IMG/VR virus record: IMGVR_UViG_3300048930_000067
Location: 1-40,764 of that record
Length of the DNA stretch: 40,764 nucleotides
Reading direction: 5' to 3' (one strand)
Source of the DNA: a virus
The translations under genes and the position numbers were made by a program. Every line of letters starts with the position of its first letter. The first letter of the stretch is position 1. Under the pieces are notes generated by a model, which saw only the letters and a list, made by a program, of their open reading frames with translations, did not search any database and had not been told where the DNA came from. Below, in pieces: positions 686 to 37,507 of this stretch.

Positions 686-3600
686 TACTTAGGTCTCCAC
701 TCCTTGCCGTCCCAGACGCCTACGACTGGCTTGCCATCAGGACCCTTAAAGGTTCGCTCTTCACCGACCTTGGGGAATGATTCAGTGCCACCACTGGTCG
801 GAGTTTCTCCTCCGAGTCCCACCAACTTCTTGGCTGCTGGCAAGTAAGCCTCATAAGAGACAGGAGTGCCAGGGAACTCTTCAGTGAAGTAGGTCCCATC
901 GACCATGGCCTGGACCTTCTTCTTGTTGTACTCTTCACGCGCCAGGGAGCTGGCAATGGCACGGATGTAGATCTCTTCGCGGACCTTGGGTGCCTTGCTC
1001 GTCGAGCCTTGAATATCGAGCAGGATCTGACGTTCACCTTCTGTCGGTGCGGCACCGAAGATCGCCTTCAAGTTCTCGAGTGCACCACCCTTGATGATGT
1101 TGTCGAGATTCTCAGTCGCGGTGCCAGGGCCACCATCATCGCCTTCAACCATAGACTTGAGCCAGCCACGCTCAGCAGCCAGAGGGCCAGCATAGGCAGT
1201 GTTGTTGATGGCTAGGGCTTGCTTGAGGTTCGTCACTGCATTCGTGGACGACTGAATGACGTCACGAGCTTCCATAACCTCTTTCTGCACACCGACTGGC
1301 AGATCGGTGTACTTCTTCTTGGCTGGGCCGACCTTCGTCTCAGGCGAGATAGGCTCGCCAGTTGAAGCATCGTGATAGACGCCAGTTCGCTTGTTCAATA
1401 CGACAGGGGTGCCAGTTTCAGTGACCATGTCCTTGACCATGTCGAACTCAGGACGTTCGCGCAGGGCCAATTCACGCTCGCGGAAGCTGCGTGTCTCGGC
1501 ATCTGACTGGAGGCGAGCATTGAAATCCTTGCGGCGTATGTCGAGTTCTTCTCTCGCAAGAGCTTCACGGCTAGCCTGGGATGTCTGGTCAAGGGCCAGC
1601 TTTTCGTCCTCGATCTTCTTGCGCTGCTGTTCGCGGATGTAGTCCTCGTAGGACTGCAACCCTGCCAGACCACCAGCACCGATGTTGGCAGCGGCGTAGG
1701 GCGACTGTCCAGCCATCATTGCCAGACCTGCAGCCATGATTCCGTGGGAGGCTTCAGGTGAAAAGCCAGCCCAGTTTGTCTTAGGCTTAACCTCGCCACC
1801 TTCTGCTCGACCTTCTGGGTTGACGAGCTGATCAGAGGCGTAGGCAATGCCTGGAGCGAGCGAGAGGTATCTGTCAGGAGCGATCTCGCGCAGCCTGTCG
1901 AGAGCTCTGTTAAGAGCCTTGGGGGTGTCCTTGAGTCCATACTTGCGGACGATTGGATCACGCATGTAGTCATTGAGAGTGTCGGCAGAGCGCTTAGCCA
2001 AGTCATCAGGGTCGTCAAGATGAACTTTGTCGAACCTGGAGCGCAGAGCAATTTCAAGTGTCTTGGGCGTAACTGTCTTGTCAGGGTTGGACATCTCCCG
2101 CACCCAGACATTCTTGGCGATGTCGTGGTGAGAAGGGGTCCATTTTCCCCCACCAGGATTGATCTCAAGACGCGGATCAAGACCCTTATAGAATGCGTTA
2201 GGCAGCGTACGCGTCTTGTCAATGGCCTTGAGGCCCTTAGCAGCTGCTACGAATGGCAGCACTGCCTCGGCCGCGTTGCCGAGAGCACCGAGGTAATCAC
2301 CACCTTTGATATCGTTCCAAGCTTGATCAGTGTTGACAATTTGAGAGATGCCAGGGATAGCATCCACCACACCTGGGTAGCCAGTCTCGCCCAGACCTGT
2401 CGAGCTCGTGATGCCTTCAACCAGGCGGCGACGCTCTGGCGACGGACGCGAACCCAGAGCCCATGCTGCGATCTTATCGATCATGGTCTGGTCGAAAGGC
2501 TCAGCAATGTCAGGTCGCGACCGACCTTGAGTCTGGCGCTCCTCACGCAGCCTCTTGGCCATAGCAGAGGCTTCCTCGAGAACAGAGCCGCCTTCTGCCT
2601 TAGCGATCATGAAGCGAGGAACATCGTTAGCCGGAATGCCAGGGAACTCAGATACATTCGGAGGATCATTCATGCGCTGGATCCTGGAACGCAGATCCAT
2701 CTCTCCAGGATTGAACTCTGGCATTGCCGGATAGGTCTCATCAAGATCACGGGCAATACGCCTGTCAAACGCATCCTCGATGAAGCGCTTGCCATGCTTG
2801 GCTGCTGCCATGCCTGGGATAGCTGAGAAGTAGGCTGAACCCAAGTTAAGGCCCATAGAGACAGGGTCTTCGGAGCGATAGGCCTCATCCAACGAGAAAG
2901 CTGTGCCAGTCGGCAAGAACTCAGAGACATTCAGGTGGCCTGTTTCGCCGATGCCCCTTGAGCCGACCAGACCTTCAAGAATGCGCTCTGCTTCAGGTGA
3001 CGAGCTGCCACCGAGCAGATAGTCACGGATAAAGTCGGCAGCTTGGTCACGCAGCGTCGGCTCGTACGAGCGAGCTTCTTCCACGCGTCCGCCATCAGCA
3101 AAGCCCATCATTCCGCCGAAGATAGATGCTTGCGGCATGCCGGCCAGCGTAAGACCTAGGCCGGCAATCTGCGAGAATGGACTCGGACCAGGCATCGTCG
3201 TGGTCTGATTAGACGTGCCTCCTAGGCCCTGGCCAACTGCAGTGCCGATGCCGGCACCAAACTGCAGCTGCTGGTAGGGATAGGCGCGCTGCTCAAGGTA
3301 CTGCTGGTAAGGCACTTCCAAACGAGCCTGGTTGAGTGCCTGCTCAGCCGATGCAGCACGGAATGCACTGTCGTACCCAGACGACATGCCCTGGCCGATG
3401 CCAAGCATAGATTGTGAACCAGACAGTGCCAGGTTCTTCTCTGCAATAGCATTCGCCGTAGCTTGATCAAAGCCCTGCGCACGCAATTGGGCTTCCATCT
3501 GGGCGCGTCTCTCGCCTTGCTGCGCTCTGAGTTCAGCCTCACCCACCCGAGCTCGGTCGCCGCCGAATGCACCAGCGGTGATGGCATTGCCCTTGAAGTC

Positions 3601-3960
3601 AGAGACATCTCGTGCGAACCCACGGTCCATGCCTGCCATCGTTGAAGAGATGACAGAGTCAGTCCATGGGTTCATAAACTTGTCAATGTCGGCCTGCGTA
3701 ACAGGGCCAGCACCGCGCTGCGCAGCTTCGAGAGCTCCCTGGAACGAAGGAGCTCCAGCTCCACCAGGCTGCGTCATCTGGGCCAGGAGAGCCTGCTGCT
3801 GGGGTGTAAACCCAGCAACACGTTCCCCTTCATATGGATCGTAATCAAGATCAATAGTGCCCTTGAGACGATTAAGCAGATCCATATAGACTGCCTCGGC
3901 TCTTGGATCAGCCTTGGTCGACGATTTGGTTGTCTGCTTATTCTTTGAGCTGCCGCACAT
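685..3960 (-). CDS. Large internal virion / ejection protein
   Basis: This is the largest protein in the window (1091 residues). It begins MCGSSKNKQT, then has a helical Ala/Gln-rich region with FMNPWTDSVI and AGAFGGDRARVGEAELRAQQ, a combination I know from virion proteins near the tail genes of environmental podoviruses. Residues about 300-700 contain two diverged copies of a module (SPEAERILEGLVGSRGIGETG and SPERRRLVEGITSSTGLGETG), each followed by a hydrophobic Ala/Gly stretch. Next is a long charged coiled coil (about 780-850), then a C-terminal helical domain with GALENLKAIFGAAPTEGER. Three A-x-G-G-x-V motifs separate the sections. By size, position and composition I infer an internal, DNA-ejection type protein; no enzyme signature is seen. 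Confidence 0.6.
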   Translation of the reverse strand: MCGSSKNKQTTKSSTKADPRAEAVYMDLLNRLKGTIDLDYDPYEGERVAGFTPQQQALLAQMTQPGGAGAPSFQGALEAAQRGAGPVTQADIDKFMNPWTDSVISSTMAGMDRGFARDVSDFKGNAITAGAFGGDRARVGEAELRAQQGERRAQMEAQLRAQGFDQATANAIAEKNLALSGSQSMLGIGQGMSSGYDSAFRAASAEQALNQARLEVPYQQYLEQRAYPYQQLQFGAGIGTAVGQGLGGTSNQTTTMPGPSPFSQIAGLGLTLAGMPQASIFGGMMGFADGGRVEEARSYEPTLRDQAADFIRDYLLGGSSSPEAERILEGLVGSRGIGETGHLNVSEFLPTGTAFSLDEAYRSEDPVSMGLNLGSAYFSAIPGMAAAKHGKRFIEDAFDRRIARDLDETYPAMPEFNPGEMDLRSRIQRMNDPPNVSEFPGIPANDVPRFMIAKAEGGSVLEEASAMAKRLREERQTQGRSRPDIAEPFDQTMIDKIAAWALGSRPSPERRRLVEGITSSTGLGETGYPGVVDAIPGISQIVNTDQAWNDIKGGDYLGALGNAAEAVLPFVAAAKGLKAIDKTRTLPNAFYKGLDPRLEINPGGGKWTPSHHDIAKNVWVREMSNPDKTVTPKTLEIALRSRFDKVHLDDPDDLAKRSADTLNDYMRDPIVRKYGLKDTPKALNRALDRLREIAPDRYLSLAPGIAYASDQLVNPEGRAEGGEVKPKTNWAGFSPEASHGIMAAGLAMMAGQSPYAAANIGAGGLAGLQSYEDYIREQQRKKIEDEKLALDQTSQASREALAREELDIRRKDFNARLQSDAETRSFRERELALRERPEFDMVKDMVTETGTPVVLNKRTGVYHDASTGEPISPETKVGPAKKKYTDLPVGVQKEVMEARDVIQSSTNAVTNLKQALAINNTAYAGPLAAERGWLKSMVEGDDGGPGTATENLDNIIKGGALENLKAIFGAAPTEGERQILLDIQGSTSKAPKVREEIYIRAIASSLAREEYNKKKVQAMVDGTYFTEEFPGTPVSYEAYLPAAKKLVGLGGETPTSGGTESFPKVGEERTFKGPDGKPVVGVWDGKEWRPK

Positions 3961-3971
3961 GTTCTTCTACC

Positions 3972-4421
3972 TTATTGCGGATGAGGATAAACGAAGAATG
4001 CACCAGCCGGAGCGCCCAGCTGTCGTTCGTAGAGCTTCACTTTGGACTTTGTACGTTCGTTAGAGATGATGCCGATCACGAGCTTGAGATCGCCCGTTGT
4101 GCAGTTCTTAGCGAACTCAATTAGTGACTTGGCATGGTTTGAACGCCTATGATCAGGATGCACGAAGTTGAAGAGCTCGACCAGATAGGGCTTACGCGAG
4201 TACCAGAAGTTCGACACCTGCATATAGATCATGCCTTCAAGGTGCTCAGGGGTGCCGATCACACCTATGACGCCACCTTTCTGGTTAGTTCCGAGCTGGA
4301 GTGTTTCAAGGACCATGTCCTCGTCCATCTCGAAGATGCCATTTTCATCATGCAGCAAGTGACAGAGCTTCATCAGCTCCGGTTCGTCAGCAGGAGTAGC
4401 GAGTCGTACAACTGATTCCAT
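3972..4421 (-). CDS. GNAT-family N-acetyltransferase
   Basis: This 149-residue protein begins MESVVRLATPADEPEL, a standard GNAT opening in which beta-1 leads into helix 1. LVELFNFVHPDHRRSNHAKSL fits the beta-4/helix-3 acetyl-CoA binding region (consensus V-x-P-x-x-R-x-x-x-x-x-x-L). An upstream ATG is possible, but it would overlap the preceding gene. The ATG at 4421 follows the stop at 4427 closely and has AAAGGA about 10 bases before it, so I chose it. Acetyltransferases of this kind recur among phage structural genes; the substrate is unknown (a virion protein, the cell envelope or a host protein are all possible). Confidence 0.75.
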   Translation of the reverse strand: MESVVRLATPADEPELMKLCHLLHDENGIFEMDEDMVLETLQLGTNQKGGVIGVIGTPEHLEGMIYMQVSNFWYSRKPYLVELFNFVHPDHRRSNHAKSLIEFAKNCTTGDLKLVIGIISNERTKSKVKLYERQLGAPAGAFFVYPHPQ

Positions 4422-4426
4422 CTGTC

Positions 4427-4804
4427 TCAATCCTTTGCAGGTGGGGGTAAGTTCTGCAGCGTTTTGATCAGGTCTTTGCGGGTTTTCTTGACCCAATCAT
4501 CCAGCAGTCGGTGACCTCTGTCCATGTCGCCACCGCCGATCTCGAGTACCAATTCAGGACGAATGATGTACTCGCCACCCGCGACGATGACAGGAACAGG
4601 TTCAGAAAAGCCAGGAACAGGTCCGCCAATGGCGAACTTCTGGCCAGAGAACATCTGTTCGAGAATGCGTGTGCCAGCGATGGTGTTACCCTCGCCCAGC
4701 GCAGAGACTATGTCGGCTGGAACGACATAGCTGCCTGATGCGACTTCAGTCGGGATCTCGTCGGTGCGACCAGGGATGTCAGAGAGCAAGGGTCCGTGTT
4801 TCAT
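4427..4804 (-). CDS. Conserved phage virion-region protein (GGEY motif)
   Basis: A 125-residue protein containing IPGRTDEIPTEVASGSYVVP, then GEGNTIAGTRILEQMF, and near the middle VIVAGGEYIIRPE. It ends with a basic helix and LQNLPPPAKD. I recognise this layout as a conserved hypothetical family found among tail and internal virion genes of environmental podoviruses. Its GGEY motif resembles the ends of some tape-measure-like proteins. It also carries one diverged Gly-Gly motif (AIGGPVPGF). It lies between a GNAT gene and a beta-rich fibre-region protein, with a 6-base gap upstream and GAGGT before the start. The molecular function is not known. Confidence 0.7.
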   Translation of the reverse strand: MKHGPLLSDIPGRTDEIPTEVASGSYVVPADIVSALGEGNTIAGTRILEQMFSGQKFAIGGPVPGFSEPVPVIVAGGEYIIRPELVLEIGGGDMDRGHRLLDDWVKKTRKDLIKTLQNLPPPAKD

Positions 4805-13964: not shown

Positions 13965-14590
13965 GCGCCACCTCCATTAGATGGCCAGGAGGCACCGTCG
14001 ATCTCGACAAACCTCGTAATTGCCCCGCTCTCAATGAGACCCAGCACCATCTCCTCAACATCGAATGCCCCAGCAATGTGGGCATGCGCCGCCATGATGA
14101 CGGTCATCATCTCCTCGTTGGTGAGCGACACAAAGGAACCGCTGGCCATTTTCCAGCCTGAAGGATTGGCTCGCAGTCCAGCCTGGATCGCCACCATGGT
14201 TGCAATGAGCTTGGATTGACTGTCTCGATCGGTGGCCACGACATGGCCATTCCAGGGAACCCCCCCTGTCTCGACCTGCCAGCGCTTTTCAGCCGCGTGA
14301 GCACGAAGTTCATCTTTCGTCGGCAGGGGCGGGGTGGGGGGCGTTGAAGGCGTGACCTCGCCCGTCGTCAAATTGATGGTATCGCCTGGACCTGCCTGCG
14401 CCTGCACCTGTACCGGATTGAACGTCATCTTAGTCGGATGTATCGGCTCATCCGGCCACTTCGCAACCTCCAGCGCCACCAGATAGCAGCCGTAGCCTGG
14501 ATACCAGTTGGTCGGATAGTCTGTGTCGTCCATGAGAATGACGTTGAGGACCTTGCCAGCCTCATCGCAAATTGCAAAGCGCTTGCTCAT
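13961..14590 (-). CDS. DUF4376-type fibre-associated / assembly protein
   Basis: A 209-residue protein. The N-terminal half begins [20 protein letters not shown], with [14 protein letters not shown], like the opening of tail-fibre assembly proteins. A Pro/Thr linker (about 80-92) leads to a C-terminal half with [20 protein letters not shown] and DRDSQSKL, the hallmark of DUF4376. That domain is common in fibre assembly or fibre-tip proteins. It lies between a collagen-like fibre and the glycine-rich fibres with ATGA overlaps on both sides, consistent with helping fold or attach one of them. Confidence 0.75.
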
Positions 14591-15606
14591 GTCTTCGTCA
14601 CCGTCAGAATGAGAGTAGCTTCCTGGATGGTTGAGCAGCTATCTACATTGAAGTAGAGCACATCCCCCGCATCAATCGTCGTGTCCCAGCCTGTGAGTGT
14701 GGCGCCTGAGGCTTGATCATCTGCGGTAATGGTTGGCTGCACAGAACCAGTCATGCTGTCGAGATCGGTCGGCGGGTAATTCGCCAGCGTGTCTTTCCAG
14801 ATGTCGATGACGATGGATCCGACTTGATCTGCAATGATCGTCCAGGCCGTCACTGTGCAGTTAAAGGGGATGCGAATGCCGGTTCCTGCAATTCCTGTTT
14901 GAATGGCCGCGCCACCACCAACTACTGCGTAGCCAATCGCGCTTGTTGCGGCACCGGTTGGCCCGGTGGCCCCTGTTGGTCCCGTTGCGCCCGCTGTGCC
15001 TGTCGGCCCCGTGGGGCCGGTTGCCCCCGTGGGGCCAGTTGAACCTACGGCACCGACAGATCCAGTCGGGCCCGTCGCGCCGGTTGGGCCTGTGGCACCG
15101 TTCGGTCCGGCGGGTCCAGTAGGGCCCGTAGGCCCTGTGGCGCCAGCGGGACCTGTAGGTCCAGTCGGCCCAGCTCCTGCAAGGTTGATCTCCCAGTCAG
15201 CATAGGTTCCAGCCCCCGTCACTGCCGTCACATCGACAGAGAGCGCCCCCGTCAGCGTGTCATAGCTGATGATGTTGCCTTCCATCGTGTTGGAGACGTC
15301 GTAGGCAATTAATATGTTCTGGGCAATAGTGAAGCCTAGGCCAGTTTCGACTGTGAAGTTCTTAGTGCCGGTGCCAATAGTCACCGACGTAACAGATGTG
15401 GTGTTGTACTTGGTTCCGCTAGGGCCGCTAGGGCCGCTAGGACCGCTAGGACCAACTGCGATGTAGTTGCCTGCAAATTCTGCGATCTGGAGAACAGTTG
15501 TGCGCTTAGTCGTGCCATCGCTGCCGCCAGGTTGCACGAGCTCCATCTGCTCGTCGCCGGCAAGCGCGATGGCAACTGGCAGTGTAGGTATTGGTTGGTT
15601 GGCCAT
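14587..15606 (-). CDS. Collagen-like tail fibre
   Basis: A 339-residue protein with two collagen-like tracts: a short [13 protein letters not shown] block (about residues 53-65) and a long G-x-y tract of about 25 triplets (about 145-220) dominated by GPTGPTG and GATGPTG. Between them is a beta-rich spacer. A globular C-terminal domain of about 110 residues follows and should set trimer register or bind the receptor. Trimeric collagen-like shafts are well known in phage fibres. The N-terminal 50 residues ([20 protein letters not shown]) are a phage fibre attachment style. The repeats may change length by slippage. Confidence 0.8.
15416..15451. repeat. Four tandem 9-bp units in the collagen-like gene
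   Basis: Four consecutive copies of CCGCTAGG plus one variable base encode the short [13 protein letters not shown] block. The units are almost identical at DNA level, unlike the longer, codon-diversified collagen tract in the same gene. They are therefore either recent or kept by slippage, and copy-number change would alter shaft length without breaking the frame. Confidence 0.9.
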
Positions 15607-27730: not shown

Positions 27731-27999
27731 TTAACCTTGTCTCCGAACAGGCGACCTAGGTTGGAGAATACAATCGAGCAGAGCAAGGCGACCAGGACCA
27801 GCATGATCCAGCTCGTGGTCACAGTGCGGTTGACGATGACATAAACTGCAGTGCTGGCTCCGAATCCTACCAGGGCACCTGCGCAAGCGTAATAAAAGTG
27901 GGCATAGTTCACTGAGCTAATGAGTTCTTCTGGGAGCTTGGTGATCTTTGGCTCAGGCTTACGCTTACGAATGCGCTTGGGTTTGTACCTGCATATCAA
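27727..27999 (-). CDS. Two-helix membrane protein between the terminase subunits
   Basis: A 90-residue protein. It starts with a basic stretch (RYKPKRIRKRKPEPKITK), has two hydrophobic spans (about 35-54, ACAGALVGFGASTAVYVIV, and about 62-79, WIMLVLVALLCSIVF) and a short basic end. ATGA overlaps join it to both terminase genes, an unusual insertion in that pair. It could be a holin-like or inner-membrane accessory protein; the sequence gives no further hint. Confidence 0.65.
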   Translation of the reverse strand: MICRYKPKRIRKRKPEPKITKLPEELISSVNYAHFYYACAGALVGFGASTAVYVIVNRTVTTSWIMLVLVALLCSIVFSNLGRLFGDKVK

Positions 28000-28568
28000 T
28001 TCAGTGTCTCCCCACGTTTGCGCTTAGGCTGAGGCTTGGGGCTGTCGTCGGGTTGCTGCTGGCCGATGAGGTTGGCTAGGCGGTTGGCGATCTGTTCGTC
28101 GCTCAGATTGTCGAACTCACCAGCTGCACCGTGCTCGTGCTTCTGAACGTCTTTCCAGGCATCAGATCTGCGGTTCTTGAGCCAGAAGATCTGAGCAGTG
28201 GTGGAGGGCTTGATGTAGGTTTTGACTTGATGCCGCTCGACGACTTTGTCAACTACGAACAGTTTTTCTTCATCAATCGTGTAGCCAACCGCCTGCATGA
28301 ACAATGATCTCTCAACGAAATCATCAGCTATGTCCTTGCCAGGTTTTAGAGCGGCAGAAAGCTCTGGGTGGATCATCACCCACTTGCGGAAGGTCTTGAC
28401 GCCAATGCCGAACCATTCCGCTATCTCGTCGTCGGTGCAGCCGATCGCAGCCATGCGGGCGACCAGCGGTATCATCTTAGGGGTGTAGGTCTCCTCCATG
28501 TCCTGTGCCAACAGCATATCAGGATCATAGAGTGTCGGTCTGCCATTCTTCTTGGGTTCTTTGGACAC
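27996..28568 (-). CDS. terS: Terminase small subunit
   Basis: A 190-residue protein beginning MSKEPKKNGRPTLYDPDMLL. A helix-turn-helix lies at about 40-70 (AIGCTDDEIAEWFGIGVKTF), followed by LKPGKDIADDFVERSLFMQA, and later KPSTTAQIFWLKNRRSDAWK, the ending pattern of many phage small terminases. It recognises the packaging site and regulates TerL. The C-terminal tail is acidic, then basic. It is the second gene of the late operon, 17 bases from the NusG-like gene's stop. Confidence 0.85.
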   Translation of the reverse strand: MSKEPKKNGRPTLYDPDMLLAQDMEETYTPKMIPLVARMAAIGCTDDEIAEWFGIGVKTFRKWVMIHPELSAALKPGKDIADDFVERSLFMQAVGYTIDEEKLFVVDKVVERHQVKTYIKPSTTAQIFWLKNRRSDAWKDVQKHEHGAAGEFDNLSDEQIANRLANLIGQQQPDDSPKPQPKRKRGETLN

Positions 28569-28585
28569 TTGGCAATCTACCGACG

Positions 28586-29074
28586 CTAGGGTGGAACGGA
28601 TTCCACCGCTGTTGTGGGCACCTCCACCAATGTCTGCCGACCGAGCAAGTCCAACAGGACCCTTTCTCGATCAGCTGCTGTTGAGCAATCATAAACGCCC
28701 AACATGCCGGCGAATGCGCCGCTGACTATTCTGACCGGCTCGCCCTTGCGCCAGAAGCTGACCACATTAGGCAGAGCCACTTCATTCTTCTTCAACTCGA
28801 GGATGACTTGATCAGAGACACGTTGCGGTTCCGAGTTGACACATAAGATGGAACTGACACCACGTGTGCTCTTGACTGGCCACCATCCTCGTCTGTCGAT
28901 CCTGACGAACAGATACCTCGGAAACATCGGTATCTGTTCGTTGGTCCTCTGGCCACGCCTCACTCTCAGGTTAGCGACCAGCGGTAGGTAATACTCATAG
29001 CCCTGACGATGGAGGTTCTCCGTCGCCAGCCTCTCAGCACGCGGACGAGTGACCACCACCGACCAGTAGTCCAT
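28586..29074 (-). CDS. NusG/RfaH-like transcription regulator
   Basis: A 162-residue protein. The N-terminal NGN-like domain (about 4-100) has WSVVVTRPRAERLATENLHR and QGYEYYLPLVANLRVRRGQR, then IPMFPRYLFVRIDRRGWW, the family's PLFPgYvFv landmark. A C-terminal KOW-like part (about 110-155) has GEPVRIVSGAFAGMLGVYDC. Such proteins bind RNA polymerase and suppress pausing or termination. Being the first gene of a minus-strand operon of about 29 kb, it could be a late antiterminator. No strong ribosome site is seen, but one AAAACWGTTTT palindrome lies about 33 bases before the start. Confidence 0.8.
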   Translation of the reverse strand: MDYWSVVVTRPRAERLATENLHRQGYEYYLPLVANLRVRRGQRTNEQIPMFPRYLFVRIDRRGWWPVKSTRGVSSILCVNSEPQRVSDQVILELKKNEVALPNVVSFWRKGEPVRIVSGAFAGMLGVYDCSTAADRERVLLDLLGRQTLVEVPTTAVESVPP

Positions 29075-29106
29075 AGCCGAGAGTATGCCTGAACTCCACA
29101 GCCAAG

Positions 29107-29117
29107 AAAACTGTTTT
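29107..29117 (-). promoter_or_regulatory. AAAACWGTTTT palindrome, copy 1 (late side)
   Basis: AAAACTGTTTT on the plus strand (AAAACAGTTTT on the minus strand), lying 33 bases upstream of the NusG-like start. It is one of three copies in the window, each before a transcription unit. An odd-centred palindrome of this length is a typical dimeric repressor or activator site. Confidence 0.5.
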
Positions 29118-29151
29118 TCGGCAACTCCACCGAGCCCACAGAAACGACCCC

Positions 29152-29330
29152 AATTTTTGACTTTGCTTTTACCCCCCTATTTTCCCTCCCCCCTAAATTC
29201 TCTTATTCCTATTTCTCTTTTCTTAATAATTTGTATACTTCCTATTCTATTCTTTCGCAAGAAAAGAGAAAAACAAAAAACGAAATGTATAAAGGGTAGA
29301 AACAGGGGGGGTTGAAGCAAAGTCAAAATT
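29152..29330. repeat. Nested inverted repeat in the divergent region
   Basis: The outer arms are about 26 bases each: AATTTTTGACTTTGC...CCCCCC at 29152-29177 and GGGGGGG...GCAAAGTCAAAATT at 29305-29330, near-perfect complements. Inside, a 13-base pair of arms (TTTCTCTTTTCTT at 29212-29224 and AAGAAAAGAGAAA at 29249-29261) is perfect. The whole can extrude as a branched cruciform of about 180 bases. Such structures mark origins and recombination or packaging sites. Confidence 0.75.
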
Positions 29331-29455
29331 ACCCACCTCCATATATATCAAGGACTTCCATAAAACGACCCTCGAAATGAAAATCTTCATCAACTTTCAT
29401 TTTTGGGCGTTACCCTGCTAAACTGGCATCGTTCATAAGAATCTAAAAGAGTCTA

Positions 29456-29479
29456 ACGTGTACCTCCAGATGTACACGT
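29456..29479. repeat. Short inverted repeat before the plus-strand arm
   Basis: ACGTGTAC and GTACACGT are perfect 8-base arms with an eight-base loop. It lies between the nested repeat and the second palindrome, on the path of transcription to the plus-strand arm. Operator or hairpin; the function is not clear. Confidence 0.4.
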
Positions 29480-29611
29480 CCTTCTCCTTTCACTTTCGTC
29501 AAGCTCAAAATTCTCATGTCGCTCTCAACGAAGATTCCTTTCATTTTCATTTTACAGCACGTTTCCCCAAACAGCCAAACGATCAAAAACGACAAAGTGA
29601 TGTGTTTCAAA

Positions 29612-29622
29612 AAAACAGTTTT
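29612..29622 (+). promoter_or_regulatory. AAAACWGTTTT palindrome, copy 2 (early side)
   Basis: AAAACAGTTTT lies 56 bases before the ATG at 29678. Its flank GTGTTTC-AAA on the left and C on the right agrees with copy 3, giving more than 20 bases of near identity. An in-frame ATG at 29600 would make this DNA code for MCFKKTVF, so a coding explanation exists for this copy but not for copy 3. Confidence 0.5.
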
Positions 29623-29677
29623 CACGCCCCCAGAACCGAGCGATCCTCGTCGTCCACCCCCATTGCAGGAGCTCGAC

Positions 29678-29863
29678 ATGCCGACCGAGGACGAGCAACC
29701 CAAGCCGGAGCACGTCGCCGGCATACCCATCATACGCCTCCAGCTACCCCAGCTGTTCCGCAAGTTCCTGTCCTGTGCCGCTGTGTCGGCCTCCGACACC
29801 CACCTATTCGGACGCCTCAAAGACGGCTCCCTGATCGCCCTACCGATCGAGCCGCGCAAATGA
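29678..29863 (+). CDS. Small early-region protein
   Basis: A 61-residue protein starting MPTEDEQPKPEHVAGIPI, with a later IRLQLPQLFRKFLSCAAVSA segment and ending in ALPIEPRK. AGGAG six bases upstream decides the ATG at 29678. An upstream in-frame ATG at 29600 would add 26 residues (MCFKKTVFTPPEPSD...) of Pro-rich text and lacks a good ribosome site. It is the first plus-strand gene after the divergent region and probably immediate early. No family recognised. Confidence 0.55.
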   Translation: MPTEDEQPKPEHVAGIPIIRLQLPQLFRKFLSCAAVSASDTHLFGRLKDGSLIALPIEPRK

Positions 29864-30078
29864 GGATCGTCGAAACACCCCTAGCCACCACATGCGACTG
29901 GTCGCTGTGCCGCTCGCCTGCCAGAGCTCGCCGCCGATCTAACCGAGGCTACGCCCAGCACGTCCGCACCATCCCTGGAGCCTGGCACGACCCAGCAACC
30001 GACACTCTTTTTATCCACCCAACCCTCAACGACAAACTTAAGTCCCTCAACCTCAACCCAGAGCACATTATCAAATGA
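29860..30078 (+). CDS. Small basic early-region protein
   Basis: A 72-residue, Arg-rich protein (MRIVETPLATTCDWSLCRS, then PARARRRSNRGYAQHV) with two Cys residues near the start (TTCDWSLC) and an acidic, Leu-rich end (LNDKLKSLNLNPEHIIK). ATGA overlaps join it to both neighbours, including the reductase, so it is translated with them. No known domain is seen; the Cys/Arg content leaves nucleic-acid binding open. Confidence 0.55.
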   Translation: MRIVETPLATTCDWSLCRSPARARRRSNRGYAQHVRTIPGAWHDPATDTLFIHPTLNDKLKSLNLNPEHIIK

Positions 30079-32588
30079 TCAAAACTGAGCTGTCCGAACG
30101 CCTCCACGCCTTCAAGTACCGTCAGCCCAATGAATCCTTCCGAGAGGCTTGCAACCGCGTAGCCTCTGGGTTGCGCGACTCCGACGACCACTACCACGCA
30201 TTCCGCGCCATTCTGAAGGACATGCGGTTCCTGCCCGGTGGACGCATTCAATCTGCCATTGGCGCACCGCGTCAGGTCACTGCCTACAACTGCTTCGTCT
30301 CCGGCACCATTGCTGATTCCATGACGGAGGGCGAAGCCTCGATCATGGCCCGTGCTGCCCAGGCTGCCAAGACAATGCGCCTAGGCGGTGGCATAGGCTA
30401 CGACTTTTCAACGCTGCGCCCGAGAGGCTCGTTGATCAGGAAGTTGCAGTCTACCGCGACCGGACCGATCAGCTTCATGAACATCTTCGACGCGACTGGT
30501 CTAGCAATCTCCTCATCCGGCCACCGTCGAGGAGCCCAGATGGGGGTGCTACGCGTAGACCACCCGGACATCGTCGAGTTCCTGCATGCCAAGCAGCGTC
30601 CCGGTGCCCTGGAGGGCTTCAACATCTCTGTGGGCATGACAGACGAGTTCATGCAAGCTGTCGCCCAAAACAAGAGATCCTTTGACCTGCGGTTTGATGG
30701 CGAGGTCTACGGCTCGGTCAATCCTGTGGACCTCTTTGAGCAGATCATGCGCTCAACGTGGGACTGGGCAGAGCCTGGCATCCTATTCATCGACACCATC
30801 AATAACCTGAACAACCTCTACTACTGCGAGTCCATCGCTGCTACTAATCCATGCTTCACAGGCGACACAAAGGTCTGGACATCACATGGCCACAAGACCT
30901 TCAACGAGCTCGCAGGATCTTCAGCCCAGGTCCTGACGCAGTTGCCAGATGGTCGTCTGGCCTATCGCACTATGCGTAATATTCGCCGCACCCAGCGCGA
31001 TGCCAAAATAGTCGAAGTCACCTTGACATCTGGCCAGATCATACGTTGCACCCCCCAGCATATCTTCTACCTCAAGTCAGGGGAAGAGATCCAGGCTCAG
31101 CACTTGCAGCCCAACCATTCGTTGGCCTCAGTCTATCGTGTGAAGGCAAATCAGAAGGGCTACATCCGTCTGGTAAATGGGTCTGTGAATCCTCTTGAGC
31201 ATCATGTACCATTTGACTCAAACGTTCCTCGCCACATCCATGCACACCATATCAATGGCATCAAGCACGACAATCGGCCTGAGAACCTGGAGCTGATCCC
31301 TGCCAGCGAGCACAACTCCATGCAAATGCGCGGCGACAGAAATCCAATGCGGCGGTTCCCTGATCGCAACCACTTCCTCGGCCGGCAGCTCTTCGCATCC
31401 ACCAATCCCAAGTGGTGTGAAGACCTTGACACTCAAGCTATGATCCAGGACCGCGAGGCAGGCCTGTCTTATGCAGCCATAGCAAATAAGCACAACTGTT
31501 GCAAGTACACAGCCCAAAAGCGCATCAAGGCAGCCAACCATAAGGTGGCCTCTGTCCGTCAACTCACCATAACAGAAGACGTCTACTGTGGTACAGTCGA
31601 CGAGACGCACCGCTTCTTCATCGCCACAGGCGACAACGATGGCGTGTTGGTCCACAATTGCGGTGAGCAACCTTTACCGCCCTATGGCGCATGCCTGCTG
31701 GGTTCGTTCAACCTGGTGCGCTACATTAAGGACAATGGCGACCAACGCATATTTGACTACACCCAACTCGCTGCCGACATCCCACATGTAGTGAGGGCCA
31801 TGGACAATGTGGTCGACCGCACCCTTTACCCGTTGCCAGAACAGGAAACTGAAGCCACCAACAAGCGTCGTATGGGTCTGGGCGTAACAGGCCTAGCCAA
31901 CGTATTCACTGCTCTCAAGATCGCTTATGGATCCAAAGAGTCTGTAGATATCGTTTCAGCGATCCTACAAACTCTCCGCGACGAAGCCTACCGAGCCTCA
32001 GCCTTGCTGGCCCAGGAAAAGAAGCCCTTCAAGCTCTTCAAGCGCGACGAATACCTCGCCGGCAAATTCATCCAGACACTGCCACACGAGGTCCGCGACC
32101 TGATCGCTCAGCACGGTATCCGCAACTCGCACCTTCTGTCCATTGCTCCTACCGGCACCATCTCGTTGTGTGCAGACAACGTCTCCTCCGGCATTGAACC
32201 TGTGTTCGCCCACGAGGAACGACGAAAGATGTACATCGGCACTGATCTAGCAGAATACAATCTGCTAGATTATGCCTATGCCCAAGGCTGGGGCAAAGGA
32301 GAAAAGGCTGCAGACCTGACAGCTGACGACCACCTAGCCATTCACGAAGTCGCCTCAAAGTACGTCGACTCGGCTGTGTCCAAGACAGTGAATATGGACG
32401 CCACCATGCCTTGGGAGGACTTCAAGCAACTCTACTTCCGTGTGTGGGCGTACGAAGGCAAGGGCCTTTCGACTTTTAATAAAGACGGCAAAAGATTTGG
32501 CATACGGACAGATGCAGAGTCGCCAAGTGAAGACACTGCAGCATCCTGCGCTATCGATCCCACCACAGGCAAGCGAGATTGCCAATGA
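30075..32588 (+). CDS. nrdJ: Ribonucleotide reductase, class II (B12-dependent), with intein
   Basis: This gene encodes an 837-residue precursor; removing the 269-residue intein leaves a reductase of about 568 residues. It should make dNTPs from ribonucleotides with adenosylcobalamin, needing no small subunit. Landmarks: TAYNCFVSGTIADSM with Cys73, MRLGGGIGYDFSTLRPRGSL, the catalytic NPCGEQPLPPYG with its Cys at 529 after the intein, RRMGLGVTGLAN, and SIAPTGTISLCADNVSSGIE. The C-terminus has a Cys pair (SCAIDPTTGKRDC) like the regenerating tail of the family. The start overlaps the previous stop (ATGA). No nrdB-like gene is visible in the window, which fits class II. Confidence 0.85.
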   Translation: MIKTELSERLHAFKYRQPNESFREACNRVASGLRDSDDHYHAFRAILKDMRFLPGGRIQSAIGAPRQVTAYNCFVSGTIADSMTEGEASIMARAAQAAKTMRLGGGIGYDFSTLRPRGSLIRKLQSTATGPISFMNIFDATGLAISSSGHRRGAQMGVLRVDHPDIVEFLHAKQRPGALEGFNISVGMTDEFMQAVAQNKRSFDLRFDGEVYGSVNPVDLFEQIMRSTWDWAEPGILFIDTINNLNNLYYCESIAATNPCFTGDTKVWTSHGHKTFNELAGSSAQVLTQLPDGRLAYRTMRNIRRTQRDAKIVEVTLTSGQIIRCTPQHIFYLKSGEEIQAQHLQPNHSLASVYRVKANQKGYIRLVNGSVNPLEHHVPFDSNVPRHIHAHHINGIKHDNRPENLELIPASEHNSMQMRGDRNPMRRFPDRNHFLGRQLFASTNPKWCEDLDTQAMIQDREAGLSYAAIANKHNCCKYTAQKRIKAANHKVASVRQLTITEDVYCGTVDETHRFFIATGDNDGVLVHNCGEQPLPPYGACLLGSFNLVRYIKDNGDQRIFDYTQLAADIPHVVRAMDNVVDRTLYPLPEQETEATNKRRMGLGVTGLANVFTALKIAYGSKESVDIVSAILQTLRDEAYRASALLAQEKKPFKLFKRDEYLAGKFIQTLPHEVRDLIAQHGIRNSHLLSIAPTGTISLCADNVSSGIEPVFAHEERRKMYIGTDLAEYNLLDYAYAQGWGKGEKAADLTADDHLAIHEVASKYVDSAVSKTVNMDATMPWEDFKQLYFRVWAYEGKGLSTFNKDGKRFGIRTDAESPSEDTAASCAIDPTTGKRDCQ
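30852..31658 (+). other. HNH intein inside the reductase
   Basis: A 269-residue intein begins Cys-Phe-Thr-Gly-Asp-Thr (block A, residue 260), has IIRCTPQHIFYL (block B), and ends GTVDETHRFFIATG...GVLVHN before the extein Cys (blocks F/G), the His-Asn needed for excision. Between the splicing blocks lies an HNH homing endonuclease: IHAHHINGIKHDNRPENLEL. The insertion is exactly between Pro and the catalytic Cys of NPCGE, so without splicing the reductase is dead. Confidence 0.9.
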
Positions 32589-34762
32589 CAGCCTTCGAAA
32601 CATGGTTGCGTAAGATTGGCGCGGAACAGGACAACTTCCGCCGTTGGTCTGTGCGTGCGACCGACCCAGCGTCTGGCTATCCATCCCGTCAACTAACCAT
32701 CCGTGTCAAGGCAGATGGCACTTTGGAATATCCCGAGAGCTTCTCCCCTACGCTGGACGAACTGCTGGCTATTGAGGAGGAGCTCAAGACTCTTGTCAAA
32801 AGCTTCCCAAAGCATGTCAAGGTAGGCCCGCAAACGCTGGGTCTGTTAAACATAGACCCAGCTTCGCAGACCTATCAGTTTTGGGACCGCGCAACAGACC
32901 AACTGATCATGATCCAAGAACGCAGGATCATGAAGGATGGTCGCAAAGCCTACATTCCGCACACGTTCTGGTCGGATGGTGTTTGGCGCACTATGCAACC
33001 CGACCGCGAACTGCTGCCATTTTTCAAACCGCGCTACTCCACAAATAAGACCAAGATCATGGTGCACGAAGGTGCCAAGGCAGCAGATTTCTGCAACCGC
33101 ATTCACGAACTCGCTCCAGACCATCCTTGGCGCGAAGAACTAGAACAATACGAGCATTGGGGTATGATCGGCGGTGCCATCATCGGTCAACAGATCTGTG
33201 ACATGGGCGAGTTGCGCGCAGCCCAGCCTGAACTCGTGGTATATGTGTGTGACAATGATTTCCCAGGTAAACGTGTTATTGATTGCTTCTCAAGGCGATA
33301 CCGTGATCCTCTGAAGTACATCTTCTTCTACGACAATTATCCGACCGGCTGGGACCTCGCAGACCCTATGCCGACGACCTTTGACAATCGTTCCGAACGC
33401 AAATTGAGTTGGAAGATGCAGCCAGCGACCTGGGCCACAGAAAAGATCCCAGATTCAAAGCCATCCAAGTACCGTTGCACAGAACAGTTCGTGAAAGAAT
33501 GGTTCTGCATTCTTGAGCTTGATCTATTCGTTCATGCTGACAGGCCTAACCTCCTGCTTTCAAACCAGGCATTCAACTCTTGGGTGCGACCTTTCTCTGA
33601 TGTTGATGACACAGGCAAGATCCTCAAGCGTACTGCAATCGGCAAGTCACACTCTTTGATCTACGACCCTTCATCTCCTCCTGGAATCTACAATACAGGC
33701 CAGATGATCTCTATCAACACCCATGTGCCGGGATTTGTAGTTCCCAAGAAAGGCGACATTAAGCCCTGGCTCGACTTCATGCATCACTTGATTCCTGACA
33801 AAGAGGATTGCCACGAAGTCATGCGTTGGGTCGCGACTCTCATTGCTCGGCCTGATGTTAAGATGGCCTATGCTTTGTTGCTCATTTCATCCACTCAAGG
33901 TGTCGGGAAAAGCACTTTAGGTTCCAAGGTGCTCTCACCGATACTTGGCCGTCACAATGTTTCGGAGCCGTCTGAGTCAACGATCGTTGACTCAGACTTC
34001 ACAGACTGGATGGGTCATAAGCGGTTGGCTGTCTGCCACGAGATCTATGCAGGCCACTCGGCTAAGGCCTACAACAAGTTGAAGTCCATCATCACAGACG
34101 ATGTGATCCAGGTCAATAAGAAGTTTGTTCCGACCTACACGACCCAGAACTGGCTTCATGTTATTGCATGCTCCAACTCTGAGCGTGCTCTGCGGCTCGA
34201 AAACGACGACCGACGTTACCTGGTGCCAAAGGTAACAGAAGAGCACAAGCCTCATTCTTATTGGGTGCAGTTCAACAAATGGCTGGCTGAAGATGGTCTC
34301 AGCATAATTATGAATTGGGCAGATGAGTTCTGTAAGATACCAGGTAACGTAGTAATACCTGGCGACGGAGCACCCTGGACCAATCGCAAGACCGAAGTGA
34401 TCCAGGAGAACTATTCCCCAGGCCAGCAGGTGGTGAGCGAGTTCTTCGACAATGTCAAGGCCGAGTTCAATGGCGACCCCATAATCATGTACGACCAGGA
34501 CATAGTTGATCTGATCCGTGAGAGACTCTATGACGGTAAGCACAATGACCGTCTTGAGAAGCCCATGACAGTCCGCAAGATTGCCAAGTTTAAAGGCTAC
34601 CACTGTGGCAAGAAGCAAGTCTGGGACAAGCGCTCGCGTCGTCTGGCTCGCACCATCACGAATAAGATCGAGTTACTAGACTCCAGTTCGGAAGAACTGG
34701 AGTCTAGTAACATCGTCCCACTCGACATCAAGGACCTAGCCAGAAAGTGGAGCACGCTTTGA
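32585..34762 (+). CDS. Primase-helicase (TOPRIM plus SF3-type helicase)
   Basis: A 725-residue replication protein that should prime and unwind at the fork. An N-terminal TOPRIM-like region has MVHEGAKAAD (Glu162) and VVYVCDNDFPGKR (DND at 223-225). A C-terminal SF3-like ATPase has Walker A STQGVGKST (about 436-444), a Walker B-type RLAVCHEI with Glu486, and a sensor VIACSNSERAL, followed by an Arg pair (NDDRRYLVP). The ATG at 32585 overlaps the reductase stop by four bases. No DNA polymerase gene is inside the window; it may lie beyond the right edge. Confidence 0.8.
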   Translation: MTAFETWLRKIGAEQDNFRRWSVRATDPASGYPSRQLTIRVKADGTLEYPESFSPTLDELLAIEEELKTLVKSFPKHVKVGPQTLGLLNIDPASQTYQFWDRATDQLIMIQERRIMKDGRKAYIPHTFWSDGVWRTMQPDRELLPFFKPRYSTNKTKIMVHEGAKAADFCNRIHELAPDHPWREELEQYEHWGMIGGAIIGQQICDMGELRAAQPELVVYVCDNDFPGKRVIDCFSRRYRDPLKYIFFYDNYPTGWDLADPMPTTFDNRSERKLSWKMQPATWATEKIPDSKPSKYRCTEQFVKEWFCILELDLFVHADRPNLLLSNQAFNSWVRPFSDVDDTGKILKRTAIGKSHSLIYDPSSPPGIYNTGQMISINTHVPGFVVPKKGDIKPWLDFMHHLIPDKEDCHEVMRWVATLIARPDVKMAYALLLISSTQGVGKSTLGSKVLSPILGRHNVSEPSESTIVDSDFTDWMGHKRLAVCHEIYAGHSAKAYNKLKSIITDDVIQVNKKFVPTYTTQNWLHVIACSNSERALRLENDDRRYLVPKVTEEHKPHSYWVQFNKWLAEDGLSIIMNWADEFCKIPGNVVIPGDGAPWTNRKTEVIQENYSPGQQVVSEFFDNVKAEFNGDPIIMYDQDIVDLIRERLYDGKHNDRLEKPMTVRKIAKFKGYHCGKKQVWDKRSRRLARTITNKIELLDSSSEELESSNIVPLDIKDLARKWSTL
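34672..34711 (+). repeat. Perfect 18-bp hairpin inside the helicase gene end
   Basis: GTTACTAGACTCCAGTTC and its complement close a GGAA loop, a GNRA-type tetraloop. It lies wholly in coding sequence for the Ser/Glu-rich end of the helicase, where codon choice has been bent to make a perfect stem. No U-run follows. It may be an RNase site or a partial terminator before the small genes. Confidence 0.65.
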
Positions 34763-37295: not shown

Positions 37296-37315
37296 ACTGT
37301 CGCCTCCTCATTCTA

Positions 37316-37352
37316 TCTGGCAGCATAAATATCGCTCTTTTATGCTGCCAGA
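37316..37352. repeat. Perfect 14-bp hairpin between divergent units
   Basis: TCTGGCAGCATAAA and TTTATGCTGCCAGA with a nine-base loop. It sits between the minus-strand island's first gene and the palindrome/leader of the plus-strand gene at 37508. It could insulate the two directions. No T-run follows on either strand. Confidence 0.55.
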
Positions 37353-37365
37353 GAAAGTGTTTAAA

Positions 37366-37376
37366 AAAACAGTTTT
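37366..37376 (+). promoter_or_regulatory. AAAACWGTTTT palindrome, copy 3
   Basis: AAAACAGTTTT in the same flank as copy 2 (GTGTTT, then a run of A). It lies 131 bases upstream of the ATG at 37508 and is not in frame with that gene, so a shared coding origin does not explain it here. This makes a DNA-level role (promoter or operator) more likely. Confidence 0.55.
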
Positions 37377-37409
37377 CTTTTTCTTCGGCCAGAGCCATAC
37401 TCGTTCTTG

Positions 37410-37486
37410 CCTGGACTCGCCTCGTCCCTCAGCGCCTTACCCCTCGGGCGCGGACACACCTCCCTGGTCCCAGAGGCGAGTCCAGG
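37410..37486 (+). promoter_or_regulatory. Structured 5' leader of the gene at 37508
   Basis: CCTGGACTCGCCTC and GAGGCGAGTCCAGG are perfect 14-base arms 49 bases apart, with an inner GCGCC/GGCGC stem. The folded leader would end 21 bases before the start codon at 37508. It may control translation or protect the mRNA end. Confidence 0.5.
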
Positions 37487-37507
37487 CACCTCAACATGGA
37501 GAATATC

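Follow-up and report, generated by a model that had tools for sequence, protein, structure and literature searches.

In this study, we analysed a viral record of 40,764 bases (IMGVR_UViG_3300048930_000067, positions 1–40,764, in the following termed the window) and describe a dyad in the noncoding gap between its divergent gene blocks which, judged from sequence, is probably the replication origin of the phage, set within a shared divergent promoter region. We take it for an origin on the basis of a design that recurs at the corresponding junction of related phages, an SF3/D5-type helicase encoded in the adjoining operon, and parallels to the origins of SaPIs, phage lambda and herpes simplex OriS. 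Among the functions that a first-pass annotation had offered for this site, the origin is the best supported, by comparative architecture, while no evidence was found for packaging or recombination.

Left of about 29.1 kb the genes are read leftward, encoding a NusG/RfaH-like protein, the small (TerS) and large (TerL) terminase subunits, the portal and further proteins beyond, while the rightward block holds two small frames, an intein-bearing ribonucleotide reductase, a primase-helicase and Pam3-like genes. This layout supports the earlier placement of the repeat at a divergence of transcription, with no gene inside it. The dyad sits in the left half of the gap, and the features of the junction are as follows.

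27996–28568, minus strand: terminase small subunit
28586–29074, minus strand: NusG/RfaH-like gene, leading the leftward block
29075–29599, no strand: noncoding divergent gap of about 525 bp that contains the dyad, its right edge placed at the start codon (ATG) of the 87-aa frame, position 29600
29106–29118, minus strand: AAAAACAGTTTTC, possible accessory site, one of three exact copies
29152–29178, no strand: left outer arm, matching the right outer arm at 22/27 positions
29161–29224, plus strand: longest pyrimidine tract of the record
29194–29293, no strand: 100-bp segment of lowest stability in the record (23% GC, z 5.1), putative DNA unwinding element
29212–29224, no strand: left inner arm, 13/13
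29225–29258, no strand: AT-rich centre separating the inner arms, 26% GC
29259–29271, no strand: right inner arm, 13/13
29259–29311, plus strand: purine tract, ranking second in strength in the record
29305–29331, no strand: right outer arm
29600–29863, plus strand: small open frame A (87 aa, no family), leading the rightward block, with an inferred start at 29600
29860–30078, plus strand: small open frame B (72 aa), read from the sequence, with ATGA overlaps with frame A and with the reductase gene
30075–32588, plus strand: ribonucleotide reductase with an HNH-containing intein
32579–34762, plus strand: primase-helicase (SF3/AAA+, DUF5906), candidate initiator

Rfam and tRNA searches returned no match, and sigma-70 matches in the gap are weak only; a leftward sigma-70-like candidate picked out by eye at the dyad centre (TTGCGA-17-TATACA) agrees at 8/12 positions and was set aside as too weak for use. 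Elsewhere in the window, a collagen-repeat protein with tandem 9/18-base repeats lies in the structural block (14587–15606).

Read without gaps, the dyad covers 180 bases (29152–29331, centre 29241.5, register sum 58483); as an imperfect inverted repeat it has arms 29155–29224 and 29259–29328, which are 71% complementary and 34 nt apart. It is the top inverted repeat of the 40.8-kb record (E 2.6e-15), ahead by eight orders of magnitude, and its score of 30 exceeds both the best of 60 dinucleotide-shuffled versions of the 1.3-kb region (15) and the maximum of 23 in 500 shuffles preserving the purine/pyrimidine track, so that the nested inverted repeat of about 180 bases noted in the first pass is real. 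The outer arms include 14 perfect pairs (29155–29168 with 29315–29328) and share 10/13 positions with the inner arm elements, the arm middles match weakly (16/33, with 11.6 expected, p 0.05), and AATT stands at each outer end of the dyad's terminal inverted repeats. Some details of the first description had to be corrected: the outer arms exist, but their pairing as 29152–29177 with 29305–29330 is off by one with respect to the register sum, and the perfect 13-nt inner match was correctly seen and correctly placed on the left, but its right arm had been put at 29249–29261. The region folds significantly as DNA (z −5.8) and as RNA (z −6.6/−5.6), yet the predicted fold of the plus strand is a single interrupted hairpin and not the branched cruciform first suggested.

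The switch from pyrimidine on the left to purine on the right is likewise present, at 84% pyrimidine and 81% purine rather than "nearly all", and was the most extreme among the window and the relatives compared for this feature. No purine/pyrimidine tracts in the record are stronger than the two halves of the dyad, and the next least stable segment of the record reaches only z 2.9, so top inverted repeat, least stable DNA and strongest tracts coincide. The dyad can also be described as a set of four AAGMAAAGWSAAA copies spaced by 56, 47 and 56 nt, with no further exact copy in the window; since this motif was fitted to its copies, it is suggestive only as the candidate iteron of the window. 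No other copy of the dyad was found in the window. The possible accessory element AAAAACAGTTTTC occurs exactly at 29106–29118 (minus), 29611–29623 (plus) and 37365–37377 (plus), and allowing up to two mismatches gave no further match in the window. Every copy is located at or close to a divergent noncoding gap, and both such gaps of the window are represented; the second one (37296–37507) contains two strong hairpins (37309–37359 and 37408–37488) and lies between a Pam3 gp33-like gene and a small frame on the minus strand that has a good ribosome site.

Among the checks that the first-pass annotation had proposed, a GC-skew switch at this place and the same repeat in related phages lend its reading no weight. 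Measured along the coding strand, third-position GC skew agrees between the two gene arms (−0.151 and −0.135), and the switch at the junction therefore only follows gene direction; cumulative and codon-position skew are thus uninformative and lend the origin reading no support. An exact scan for the outer-arm pattern TTTGACTTTGCTTNNACCCCCC hit 0 IMG/VR contigs, and the closest syntenic relatives bear different repeats. Absence from relatives, which had been named as refuting the reading, is thus literally what we find, but position and design are conserved while the motif changes, and such turnover fits the expectation for fast-evolving initiator sites.

What the relatives share at this junction is short, gap-confined iterons that surround AT-rich DNA; they often occur in both orientations, and a purine or G tract is often adjacent. 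In the closest phages of equal NusG–TerS–TerL order, L016 and L095, NusG is likewise preceded by a long noncoding gap, with an iteron of about 15 bp, AAAAGTAACACGTAC, that differs from the window; L095 carries seven copies in both orientations, found in the gap only, with six matches within about 360 bases in the whole-record count, together with a G-run purine tract. In the more distant L173, a DUF5906 primase-helicase gene diverges from NusG–TerS–TerL as in the window, and in the gap CCTAGGT units make up a nested inverted repeat of 279 bp (E 4e-15, fold z −9.8) that surrounds a 19%-GC centre, with 7/7 copies of the iteron in the whole record lying in the gap. Three further loci were retrieved with the L173 primase as query, their repeats being disregarded (L262, L263 and L264, with 70%, 42% and 40% primase identity to L173), and in each of them the NusG/primase gap holds both the top inverted repeat and the segment of lowest stability in the locus. 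Their iterons differ again, and all exact copies are in the gap with 0 elsewhere in the record: 3/3 of AGCCTACAT in L262, 6/6 of AATTCGGAT in L263 and 8/8 of ATCTGAAAC in L264. The units are palindromic in L173, mostly on one strand in L263 and mixed in L264.

The design is not found everywhere. Primase relatives in which no NusG-like gene was detected show a mixed pattern, Pam3, PaMx74 and MW202675 contain no comparable inverted repeat, and the published phages RDJL3, P106B and Soft, which have a related primase, differ in layout. Relatives of the reductase (L003–L012) were rejected as junction counterparts, their neighbours being different; one of them, L010, has a 254-bp inverted repeat (704–951) in which CTAAGTTAAGACG units surround a C-run and which precedes the gene of an SNF2-type helicase; this repeat is an analogue and not a homologue of the window dyad. 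In bacterial genomes, terminase relatives are mainly from Alphaproteobacteria and the whole junction was seen in none. In L020, the TerL gene is split by an intein-like in-frame insert of about 1 kb (3055–4104).

For a quantitative comparison we left out the window, which had been supplied for its repeat, and L173, which had been noticed by its repeat, leaving five junctions, a small sample defined post hoc by ourselves, against 41 other NusG-like loci. The least stable segment lies in the gap in 4/5 junctions and 4/41 controls (p 0.002), and both features do so in 3/5 and 2/41 (p 0.006). For the inverted repeat alone the enrichment is not significant (4/5 against 17/41, p 0.12); 13 of the 17 repeat-positive controls form one group with an upstream terminator-like hairpin. 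We therefore state that the design recurs at the NusG/primase junction as read from these sequences, and do not claim universality. Among the control loci L096–L113, the upstream inverted repeat was discounted as a terminator-like hairpin; it combines a hairpin with a T-run, precedes the NusG-like domain by about 550 bases (about 4370–4510) and may be an attenuator. L123 shows a 70-base inverted repeat (4580–4649) with a T-rich left and an A-rich right arm, about 350 bases upstream of its NusG-like gene, where the DNA of the locus is least stable.

The helicase gene begins about 3.2 kb from the dyad, which lies upstream of the rightward operon. Its 727-aa product belongs to the SF3/D5 clade described in PMC9611036, matching PF19263, the C-terminal region of NrS-1 by sequence and fold, and the SaPI5 primase-helicase by fold. 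A full-length structure model is confident for about residues 360–620 only, which is the helicase part; the N-terminus looks TOPRIM-like by eye, and no PrimPol match was found in the protein. Ingredients known from other replicons that the window contains are an SF3/D5-type helicase-primase gene as in SF3 replicons and an unusually unstable AT-rich stretch of the DUE type (29194–29293, z 5.1). Confined iterons are clear in L173, L263, L264, L262 and L095; the four AAGMAAAGWSAAA copies of the window are fitted and suggestive only.

In SaPIs, the iterons flank an AT-rich stretch. SaPI origins and Rep, as well as SCCmec Cch2, resemble the window in that an SF3/D5-type helicase of the same fold is encoded near short iterons, and the Rep proteins of SaPIs act as initiator helicases and recognise the iterons of their cognate origin, apparently in the form of two hexamers (PMC7581432). 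However, SaPI origins lie directly downstream of rep, whereas the window element is upstream of its operon at a divergent junction, and its sites are longer and form one nested dyad. The lambda origin has inverted initiator sites by an A+T-rich region that is nearly all purines on one strand (PMC5043065), near the replication genes, and such a strand-asymmetric tract at A+T-rich DNA is present in the window too. In contrast to the window, it lies inside the initiator gene O and not in noncoding DNA, it does not switch strand at its centre, and it uses O, P and host DnaB where the window encodes an SF3 helicase. In herpes simplex OriS, inverted initiator boxes flank an AT-rich spacer (PMC12543377); virus and initiator, an SF2 helicase, are unrelated, so that this is a functional analogy only. 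NrS-1 primase-polymerase, the closest solved relative of the window helicase domain, recognises two sites on opposite strands in the middle of its genome, where the origin is proposed to lie (PMC7102993), and differs by its PrimPol N-terminus and 8-nt site. By analogy, the dyad would work like iteron, SaPI and lambda origins, but we do not file it as a member, because SaPI-type and lambda-type placement were looked for and not found.

We propose a model in which the SF3 primase-helicase of the phage, or a small partner protein, would bind paired, oppositely facing sites in the two arms, so that two assemblies, one on each side, could strain and melt the AT-rich centre. Divergent transcription and the strand asymmetry of the pyrimidine/purine tracts may aid melting, each strand would load one helicase, and forks would depart from the dyad in both directions. 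We infer that paired sites in duplex DNA outweigh hairpin extrusion.

The main rival is a divergent promoter/operator, in which a regulator of phage or host would bind the inverted sites and switch the two operons, low stability is simply that of promoter DNA and replication starts elsewhere. Since the gap separates divergent operons, promoters must lie here and would by themselves make it AT-rich, inverted and phased sites are typical of operators as well, and AAAAACAGTTTTC, as a second dispersed element in three copies, appears at both divergent gaps of the window. We nevertheless consider this reading rather unlikely as the whole explanation, given that the iterons of relatives are confined to one gap and were not found at other promoters, the instability is extreme (z 4–5), purine or G tracts recur and the sigma-70 matches are weak. 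With promoters necessarily in the gap, operator and origin readings can both hold.

Paired antitermination leaders, by which the same purine-rich leader would open both divergent transcripts and recruit the NusG/RfaH-like protein in the manner of lambda nutL/nutR or RfaH ops, would account for the NusG/RfaH-like gene directly downstream, for the similar purine-rich leader that each arm forms when read outward, and for the significant RNA fold. This appears improbable, as the differently oriented units of the relatives do not amount to one sense element per transcript and the NusG-like gene is not tied to such repeats, with both features together at only 2/41 control loci. Still less probable is a packaging (cos/pac) site recognised by terminase: TerS and TerL are nearby, but the NusG-like gene intervenes between dyad and TerS, the relatives tie the element to the NusG/primase gap, and L018 and L019, the nearest terminase relatives whose upstream genes differ, do not contain it. 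Least credible of all is a small MITE-like mobile element, a recombination hot spot, or a product of chance or assembly. Terminal inverted repeats and the AATT present at each of their outer ends would suit a mobile element, but the dyad is single in the window, its exact pattern is absent from IMG/VR and the dispersed copies of a MITE were not seen; arms only 71% alike speak against a fold-back artefact, and the shuffles exclude chance.

Returning to the origin reading, we tentatively suggest, as a possibility we would not yet bet on, that the dyad represents a widespread, undescribed class of tailed-phage origins, in which inverted initiator sites are nested around an unwinding element with strand asymmetry, located where an SF3 primase-helicase operon meets a NusG–terminase operon. 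The sites would change fast, only layout and position would be kept, and the NusG paralogue could couple divergent transcription with firing. Few origins of uncultured tailed phages have been identified from sequence, because origins are not conserved as sequence. If the origin reading is right, a simple rule, namely top inverted repeat, least stable 100 bp and confined iterons at the SF3 primase-helicase/NusG–terminase junction, would locate origins in many phages. Such junctions would then also provide co-varying pairs of initiator and site with which origin recognition and opening by the SF3 helicases of phages could be probed, a question that equally concerns NrS-1 and other helicases of the D5 type.
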